From Oligoflexia bacterium (GTDB lineage: Bacteria > Bdellovibrionota > Bacteriovoracia > Bacteriovoracales > Bacteriovoracaceae): a stretch of DNA of 64,000 nt. The notes below the pieces were generated by a model, which worked only from the letters and a program-made list of their open reading frames with translations, was not told the DNA's origin and ran no database searches. The stretch is from positions 310,001 through 374,000 of the forward strand of contig JADGAN010000001.1 in NCBI GenBank assembly GCA_015231955.1, given 5' to 3'. This document shows positions 25,138 through 27,336 of the stretch, in pieces. The translations under genes and the position numbers were made by a program. Numbering within the stretch: the first letter of the stretch is position 1; each line of letters opens with the position of its first letter.

Positions 25138-26175
25138 ATGAAAAAAAAATATAAAGTTGTCATTTCCGAGGGCAAGAGACCTTCGATGTATTTAAAGCAT
25201 ATTGAGAATATCAAAAAAGAAATTTTCGGTGAAGATTTTGAAGTTATTTTGGCAAAGGATTTGGAAGAAGAGACTCTTATTGAGAAAATTGTTGATGCCG
25301 ATTCTCTTATTATTCGCCCGGGAATGATGTTTACTAGCAAAAGTATAAAAAAATTAAAGCAATGCCAATGCATTGTTAGTTTGGCGGTTGGGTATGATCA
25401 TATCGATATTGATTGTGCGAGTAAGCAGAAAATTAAAGTTTGCAATGTCCCTGATTATGGTTGTGAAGAGGTTGCGGACACGGCAATAGCACTCCTTTTG
25501 AATGCTGTAAGGAAAATTGGTTTTTACAATACGGTCTTAAAGGAGAATATTTGTAAATGGGATTGGCAGGTCGGAATACCGATGCATCGATTACGAAGTC
25601 AAAAATTGGGGATAATCGGCTTAGGCCGGATAGGCTCTGCTGTTGCCGTTAGGGCCAAGGCCTTTGGTATGGATGTGTGCTATTTTGATCCTTATAAAGA
25701 GTGTGGTTATGATAAATCACTTGGTATTTCAAGGATTGAAGCTATTGAAGATCTTTTAAGTTCATCAGACATTATAACAATCCATACCCCTTTAAATGAA
25801 GAGACGAAAGGTATGGTGAATAGATCGTTCATTGAAAAGATGAAGAGAGGGGCCATCCTGCTTAATACTGCGAGAGGAGCCATTTTTGATAGTCTGGATA
25901 CAATCTATTTTAGCTTGCAAAATGAGATTTTATCATTTGTTGCAACGGATGTTCTTCCAATTGAACCACCTATAGATGGAAAACATTTGTTATTAGAATC
26001 TTGGTCTACCGCCAGTTCCTTGTTTGATCAACGACTGGTTATAACACCTCATATGGCCTTTTATTCAGAAGAGGCCAGTTATGAGTTATGCTGTAAAGCT
26101 GCAGTTGCAGCGAGGAATTCTGTTCTGGGAAAAAGAGTTGATAATATTATTAATAGTGACAAATTTTTATATTGA
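25138..26175 (+). CDS. D-2-hydroxyacid dehydrogenase (NAD-dependent)
   Basis: A protein of 345 aa of the phosphoglycerate dehydrogenase/CtBP superfamily. The NAD motif LGIIGLGRIGSAV lies near residue 157. The catalytic Arg is in NTARGAIFDS, the Glu is probably in VLPIEPP and the His is in ITPHMAFYS. It interconverts a 2-hydroxyacid and a 2-ketoacid. A unique insertion (LLLESWSTASSLFDQ) precedes the His loop. The gene is three bases after the radical SAM gene. Its stop codon shares two bases with the target-site duplication of the small mobile element at 26174. Together with the GAPDH-like protein it resembles the Epd/PdxB order of steps (aldehyde phosphate, acid, 2-keto acid), but that is an analogy only. 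Confidence 0.87.
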   Translation: MKKKYKVVISEGKRPSMYLKHIENIKKEIFGEDFEVILAKDLEEETLIEKIVDADSLIIRPGMMFTSKSIKKLKQCQCIVSLAVGYDHIDIDCASKQKIKVCNVPDYGCEEVADTAIALLLNAVRKIGFYNTVLKENICKWDWQVGIPMHRLRSQKLGIIGLGRIGSAVAVRAKAFGMDVCYFDPYKECGYDKSLGISRIEAIEDLLSSSDIITIHTPLNEETKGMVNRSFIEKMKRGAILLNTARGAIFDSLDTIYFSLQNEILSFVATDVLPIEPPIDGKHLLLESWSTASSLFDQRLVITPHMAFYSEEASYELCCKAAVAARNSVLGKRVDNIINSDKFLY

Positions 26176-26295
26176 AAAAAAGTAACTGCTCACACCCTTC
26201 AGCCATCTACCCTCTACCGGATGCTGAAAGTTGCTTAGCTAACAGCATTTGGTTGAGAGGTGAAGGTTGAGGGGTGTGAGCAGTTACGAAAAAAA
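26174..26295. mobile_element. 106-bp IS66-like MITE with 8-bp target duplication
   Basis: The core at 26182-26287 is bounded by perfect 16-base terminal inverted repeats, GTAACTGCTCACACCC at the left and its complement at the right. Pairing continues imperfectly to 30 of 37 positions. An inner pair (ATGCTG at 26221-26226 with CAGCAT in 26243-26248) would extend the hairpin. The core is flanked on both sides by the identical 8-mer GAAAAAAA (26174-26181 and 26288-26295). Ends beginning GTAA plus 8-bp duplications are the known signature of the IS66 family. No transposase is encoded, so this would be a non-autonomous derivative. It separates the hydroxyacid dehydrogenase from the KARI-like gene and could fold in the mRNA. 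Confidence 0.75.
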
Positions 26296-26328
26296 TATAT
26301 TAACTTTAAAATTTTTCAAGGGAAAACA

Positions 26329-27336
26329 ATGGGAAAAGTTTATTATGATAAGGATGCAGATCTTAAGGAAATAAAAAAACAGACAATTGCAATTATTGGA
26401 TATGGTATTCAAGGCAGGAACCAATCACTCAATATGCGTGAATCAGGTTTGAATGTCATTGTTGGAAATATTGATGACCATTATGCTCCGAATGCAATTA
26501 AAGATGGCTTCAAATTGTATTCTCCTGAAGCCGCCGCCGAAAGAGCAGATATCATCTATATGCTAATTCCTGACGATGCACAGGGATATGTTTATGAACA
26601 GTATATTCGCCAGCATATGACGAAAGGAAAAGCTATTGTCTTTGCTCATGGCTTTTCTATTCGCTATGGACGTATTGTTCCTCCTAAAGATGTTGATGTT
26701 ATGTTGATGGCACCAAGAATGCCTGGAAAGCAAATTCGGGAGTATTTTTTAAATGGAAGTGGTGCGCCTGTGTTTATTGGTGTTCATCAAAATTACACAA
26801 AAAGAGCAAAACACAGAGTTCTTGCAATGGCAAAAGCAATTGGAGCAACTCGCATTGGTGCACTAGAGGTTTCTTTTGAAGAGGAAACAGAAGTTGATCA
26901 TTTCATAGAACATTTTCTTTTGCCCATTATTGTTCGTGCTATAAGAGTTTCTTATGATGCACTTGTTGAGGAAGGATATAGCAAAGAGGTTGCTTTGCTT
27001 GAAACTTATGCATCTGGAGAAATCGGGGAGCTTATTCTTGAGGCATCGAGAGTTGGTTTATATCAAGTTTTTCAGCAAAACACATCTCCCACTGCTCAAT
27101 TTGGCATGGCCCATTATGCAGAAAAAGTTTTTCCTGATTCAAATAAGAAGATGATTAAAGATATTTTAAAGAAGATTAAGAATGGTGAATTTGAAAAAGT
27201 TTTAAAGAAAGAAGGACTATCTGGCTATAAGCATTTAAAAAAGGTAGTTAAAGATAATAATCAATCTGATCTTATAAAAACGCATCATCGTTTACAAAAA
27301 ATGATTAAAATTAGTGGGAATGAGGCCGTAAAATAA
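26329..27336 (+). CDS. Ketol-acid reductoisomerase-like protein with altered active-site Lys
   Basis: A protein of 335 aa from the ATG at 26329, with AGGG just upstream. In-frame codons further 5' come from the MITE and are not native. It follows class I KARI (IlvC) closely at the start (VYYDKDADL, AIIGYGIQGRN at 21-31, FAHGFSI with His107, Asp190 and Glu194 in VDHFIEH). At position 130, where IlvC has Lys in APKGPG, this protein has Arg (APRMPG). The C-terminal metal-site glutamates are only partly matched (E225, E231). IlvC performs an alkyl shift plus NADPH reduction of acetolactate. The substitution and the glycan-locus neighbours point to a different branched ketol-acid substrate or a simple reductase role (inference). 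Confidence 0.85.
   Translation: MGKVYYDKDADLKEIKKQTIAIIGYGIQGRNQSLNMRESGLNVIVGNIDDHYAPNAIKDGFKLYSPEAAAERADIIYMLIPDDAQGYVYEQYIRQHMTKGKAIVFAHGFSIRYGRIVPPKDVDVMLMAPRMPGKQIREYFLNGSGAPVFIGVHQNYTKRAKHRVLAMAKAIGATRIGALEVSFEEETEVDHFIEHFLLPIIVRAIRVSYDALVEEGYSKEVALLETYASGEIGELILEASRVGLYQVFQQNTSPTAQFGMAHYAEKVFPDSNKKMIKDILKKIKNGEFEKVLKKEGLSGYKHLKKVVKDNNQSDLIKTHHRLQKMIKISGNEAVK

Follow-up and report, generated by a model that had tools for sequence, protein, structure and literature searches.

A very probable IS66-derived MITE between a 2-hydroxyacid dehydrogenase gene and a KARI-like gene, and its copies in the same genome

In this study, we analyzed a 64,000-nucleotide stretch of bacterial DNA (the window) together with its source genome, and found that a 106-bp hairpin directly behind a D-isomer 2-hydroxyacid dehydrogenase gene is very probably an IS66-derived MITE, that is, a geneless element made of two ends of one IS66 kind (here called IS66A) lying back to back, which was moved in trans and inserted at this place (Table 1). 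The first-pass annotation had described a 106-bp core with perfect 16-base ends starting with GTAA and an exact 8-bp flanking duplication, the left copy of which shares two bases with the dehydrogenase stop codon. All of these were recovered at the positions listed, the shared bases being the last two of the stop codon TGA (26173-26175). The inverted repeat comprised 45 + 45 nt with 80% complementarity and a 16-nt spacer, and the open reading frame list contained no frame of at least 80 aa inside the 106 bp.

Table 1. Positions of the MITE and of the neighboring genes in the window
Feature	Position	Strand	Basis or remark
MITE core, 106 bp	26182-26287	+ (reference orientation)	Inverted repeat, copy comparison, folding
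Left terminal inverted repeat GTAACTGCTCACACCC, 16 perfect bases	26182-26197	+	Sequence
Right terminal inverted repeat, 16 perfect bases	26272-26287	-	Sequence
Left 8-bp target duplication GAAAAAAA	26174-26181	none	Begins with the GA of the TGA stop
Right 8-bp target duplication GAAAAAAA	26288-26295	none	Sequence
D-isomer 2-hydroxyacid dehydrogenase gene, 345 aa	25138-26175	+	Stop TGA 26173-26175 intact
KARI-like gene, 335 aa	26329-27336	+	Start ATG 26329
False in-frame upstream extension, partly MITE sequence	26260-26328	+	From GTG 26260

First, we examined how often this hairpin occurred. The 15-base MITE end had 58 + 54 occurrences in the genome, compared with 0 in a reversed control. The search for further copies with the same ends that the first-pass annotation had proposed yielded 47 two-ended copies, including that of the window, when a copy was defined by both ends (third-last end base free) with 60-90 bases between them. 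Thirty-three of them were identical over 106 bases (the window copy, which served as reference, is counted here), and the remaining copies comprised 10 with 1-3 differences, two of 92 bp and two belonging to a subfamily with 16 differences. The 8-bp duplication was exact in 35 of the 47 copies, had one mismatch in two and was absent in 10; when the left flank of one copy was compared with the right flank of another, none of the 2162 cross-pairs agreed. The A+T content of the target duplications was 82.5%, compared with 66.8% in the flanks. The family shows the features of a MITE: it is short, has terminal inverted repeats, lacks a transposase and occupies many duplicated, unrelated sites. Since many identical copies were present at independent sites, it appears to have spread in a recent burst. 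The two-ended pattern was found in 0 stretches of genome_contigs and in none of the 128 other genomes examined from the order (all 128 labelled as its own family). G062 had a related hairpin in which one end was good. In G025, a 2.3-Mb genome of the same family, there were 40 + 39 ends of the form GTAACTGCTCACNCC (e.g. in L088), C occupying the free base in almost all of them, and many GTAACTGCTCACCCC ends; elements with related ends have expanded separately there.

Folding of the hairpin was also analyzed. As single-stranded DNA it reached -36.5 kcal/mol (z -9.4; 0 of 200 shuffles as stable) and its sense RNA -74.0 kcal/mol (z -13.1), and on the minus strand it was followed by TTTTTTTC, which is supplied by the duplication. 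The stable RNA fold and the tract behind it on the minus strand are what one might expect if the hairpin were a functional RNA or an operon terminator rather than mobile DNA. However, no Rfam family matched the hairpin, a search for terminator-like sites in 25900-26500 gave none, the same 106 bases stood at 32 other places with unrelated flanks and mostly with their own exact duplication, and the corresponding gene pair of a relative (L146) had no hairpin; we therefore regard this explanation as highly improbable. A promoter scan near the hairpin found 3 candidates vs 2.2 expected, which is no excess. Being short, palindromic, mostly extragenic and multi-copy, the family also resembles REP/BIME-type palindromes spread by a RAYT (Y1) transposase. 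Such palindromes have no target duplication and a Y1 transposase gene nearby, whereas exact 8-bp duplications flanked 35 of the 47 copies here and the ends matched IS66, so that hardly any credence can be given to a REP/BIME origin.

Second, we searched for the source of the ends, and PF03050 (IS66 transposase) matched at 12 places in the genome. A complete tnpC-only IS66 (L079:1995-3559, 1565 bp) encodes one TnpC of 481 aa (232.9 bits vs an NCBIfam cut-off of 180) and has perfect 17-nt ends (GTAACTACTCACCCCCT) and the 8-bp duplication AGGATAAC. IS66A, a closer kind, was seen as fragments only: a left end followed by the tnpC start, a right end directly after a tnpC stop, and remnants. Several copies broke off where a contig ended, as is expected of a collapsed repeat. 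The left and right ends of IS66A agreed in 51 of 53 bases, and these ends of about 50 bp matched both MITE arms in 38-44 of 53 bases and, within the first 17, in 15-17; shuffled sequences scored far lower. Because the IS66A ends match both arms, the MITE looks like two IS66A terminal repeats placed back to back, with the middle lost. The IS66 link suggested in the first-pass annotation was thus borne out, as there are IS66 transposase genes in elements with matching ends and 8-bp duplications; the genome contained both further copies of the MITE and, in L079 and IS66A, IS66 elements with matching ends. Two larger candidates were rejected as the parent IS: a 2728-bp element on C45 (L043), which has the right ends, consisted of two copies of the MITE, both of them damaged at the inner end, and the larger element behind the junction GTGTGAGC/TAATGG was an IS110-like insertion within MITE copies (see below).

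Considering the end sequences and the duplications, the MITE was probably moved in trans by an IS66 TnpC. In the proposed mechanism, TnpC made elsewhere in the cell would bind the GTAACTGCTCAC ends and move the hairpin into an AT-rich 8-bp target, which would then be duplicated. Here the insertion hit the very end of the 2-hydroxyacid dehydrogenase gene and left its stop codon intact. A MITE of the same kind might instead have been moved by the TnpC of L079; no other tnpC-only IS66 was seen complete, with its two ends and a duplication, and L079 is identical to the MITE in 14-15 of the first 17 end bases. However, L079 showed no likeness across the arms, its match covering only about 17 bases compared with 53 for IS66A, and it is rather unlikely to be the mover. 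The MITE would belong to the ISBst12-type group of IS66. GTAA-starting ends together with an 8-bp duplication were found in the MITE, L079, L109-L111 and L104, and a single tnpC-type gene was present in L079, IS66A being read as tnpC fragments with adjacent ends. Among 18 named loci (L097-L114), four showed such ends with a duplication: three full elements of a Bryobacterales MAG (L109-L111; TnpC 43% identical to that of IS66A, ends GTAACTGCTCAGGCCCCTTC, three different 8-bp duplications) and one element of a gammaproteobacterial MAG with GTAACTACTCAC ends.

Several other arrangements involving IS66A-type sequences were observed. Two units with IS66A-type ends, L047:91-1785 (target duplication TATTTTTG) and L074:153-1156 (target duplication AATAAAAG), held a partial tnpC, a MITE or half a MITE, and a 23S rRNA IVP-like four-helix-bundle gene (PF05635, E 3e-37 in L047), and they look like a mobile cassette carrying the IVP gene. 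A repeat with a GTAAGTTTAAACTGGATTCCAG end was present at the starts of contigs C22, C27, C29, C39, C49, C50 and C51 of G000 (loci L192, L195, L197, L206, L214, L215 and L216), in L052 and L047, and also inserted within an IS66A tnpC remnant; it is possibly a further IS66-like end. Four of the 10 MITE copies lacking a duplication (L004, L010, L024 and L035) adjoined truncated IS66A pieces; the outer flanks of the first three were unpaired, and L035 lay within a larger unit with its own duplication. This position beside IS66A pieces suggests deletions beginning at the MITE end. A partner swap test of the copies without duplication showed no direct exchange, and the three inverted 8-mer matches among them were composed of A/T only and look like chance.

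With regard to the insertion site, the gap between the dehydrogenase and KARI-like genes is now 153 nt and becomes 39 nt when the MITE and one duplication are subtracted, the sequence expected for the empty site being TGAAAAAAATATATT; the sequence itself thus shows that the insertion moved the KARI-like gene to 153 nt from the dehydrogenase gene, compared with 39 nt before. In L146, from a relative of another genus, the two genes overlap by 4 nt (ATGA) without any insert and encode proteins 44-45% identical to those of the window. It was the only one of 14 relatives' loci compared in which the dehydrogenase adjoined a KARI-like gene. Because the L146 pair overlaps without an insert, the insertion separates two genes that at least one relative keeps directly coupled, which agrees with the earlier view that it splits this gene block; the window pair was probably non-overlapping before the insertion. 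An effect on coupling or expression is plausible. The RNA hairpin, although very stable, lacks a U tract on the sense strand, so that intrinsic termination may be less likely than uncoupling of the two genes or altered mRNA stability. The first-pass annotation had also proposed that the MITE supplies false upstream codons to the KARI-like gene, and the frame from GTG 26260 indeed proved to be an artefact: the KARI model aligned from residue 2 counted from ATG 26329, and AAGG lay upstream, so that this ATG is the gene's own start. Automatic start-codon calling 3' of the MITE may thus add false residues. The KARI-like genes of the window and of L146 (1489-2499) both lay beside a 2-hydroxyacid dehydrogenase gene, and the window neighborhood also contained a cytidylyltransferase gene with a weak PseF match. 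Because of these neighbors, the KARI-like protein may be something other than the usual IlvC of valine synthesis.

Insertion next to a stop codon was not confined to the window. Only 3 of the 35 duplicated copies lay deeper than 10 bp within an ORF of at least 100 aa, compared with 84% of random positions, and 11 of the 35 sites were within 10 bp of the 3' end of a gene. When tolerated A+T-rich sites including the last 10 nt of genes were considered, 11 of 32 were gene-end sites vs 12.8% expected (p 0.0015, an optimistic value because the last-10-nt cut was set after inspecting the site distribution). Strictly outside genes, no enrichment was observed (2 of 23 sites in the first 10 nt after a stop, p 0.45). 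All 11 gene-end insertions kept the length of the reading frame, and only the last residue was altered in three of them. In four of the 11 (L015, L030, L059 and L063), a single base remains between the duplication and the native stop; the last codon now takes its third base from the G of GTAA, and the TAA that follows takes over as the stop. The simplest reason for this pattern is selection against damaging insertions, and a targeting preference may also play a part. A more far-reaching idea, that the GTAA terminus serves as a portable stop, that TnpC prefers gene 3' ends and that MITE copies become safe harbors and hence landing pads for guide-RNA-directed IS110-type elements, seems doubtful to us. 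This genome illustrates that such elements can settle at gene ends without protein damage.

Finally, other mobile DNA uses the MITE as a landing site. In G000, 18 MITE copies (that in L044:729-1075 and 17 others) carried an IS110/IS1111-like insertion. Its left end, TAATGGAATGGACTCGCC, occurred 18 times in exact form, each time directly behind the ...GTGTGAGC of a MITE copy (one place with two mismatches, on C22, is left out of this count). These left ends occupied one fixed MITE position, six bases from the end, 10 at one end of the MITE and 8 at the other, so that a fixed target was seen in 18 of 18 exact left ends. TAATGGAATGGACTCGCC led into a putative N-terminal fragment of an IS110-type transposase (NF033542, E 2.8e-4, 20.1 bits vs a cut-off of 140). 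The fragment had no Pfam match, and PF01548 had no match in the contigs examined. The right junction and a guide-RNA match were not found in 55 contig starts (40 chosen for the right-junction search and 15 others) and 19 contig ends.

Among the papers listed by searches of the open PMC literature, none described an IS66-derived MITE in its title or abstract beginning; subscription papers and ISfinder were outside the scope of these searches. MITEs are a known kind of element, and the present IS66-derived family is a further member. It offers a clear case in which a probable IS66-derived MITE after a recent burst, related IS66 elements and an IS110-like parasite are present in one genome. Among known elements of the ISBst12 group, ISDge4 has ends GTGACTACTCAGCA / GTAACTGCTCAGCA, near-identical to those of the MITE, an 8-bp direct repeat and a single tnpC-like ORF; in contrast with the MITE, it is an autonomous element of Deinococcus, and the excerpted text mentions no miniature derivative (PMC12898284). 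Repeats of 8 bp are likewise given for ISPpa5a and ISPpa7 (PMC3281130). MITECca01 of Cardinium also spread recently, has its parental IS in the genome and is mostly intergenic or within mobile elements, whereas its parent belongs to the IS982 family (PMC9769881). QMITE2 of Coxiella burnetii is a small MITE with variable direct repeats of 7-11 nt, lies mainly in 3' UTR or intergenic positions and has a fixed internal site that is a hot-spot for an IS1111-type element; however, it differs in sequence, measures 150-190 bp and contains a REP, and no IS66 parent is named in the excerpted text (PMC5896051). IS110/IS1111 elements pick their targets by guide RNA and use transposon ends and palindromes (PMC11187229), and a Coxiella MITE is among these targets (PMC5896051, PMC10969869). 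IS4321/IS5075 and other members of the IS1111 group similarly target the terminal inverted repeats of a transposon, or REP or attC sequences, whereas the target in the present genome is the end of an IS66-type MITE (PMC11187229).
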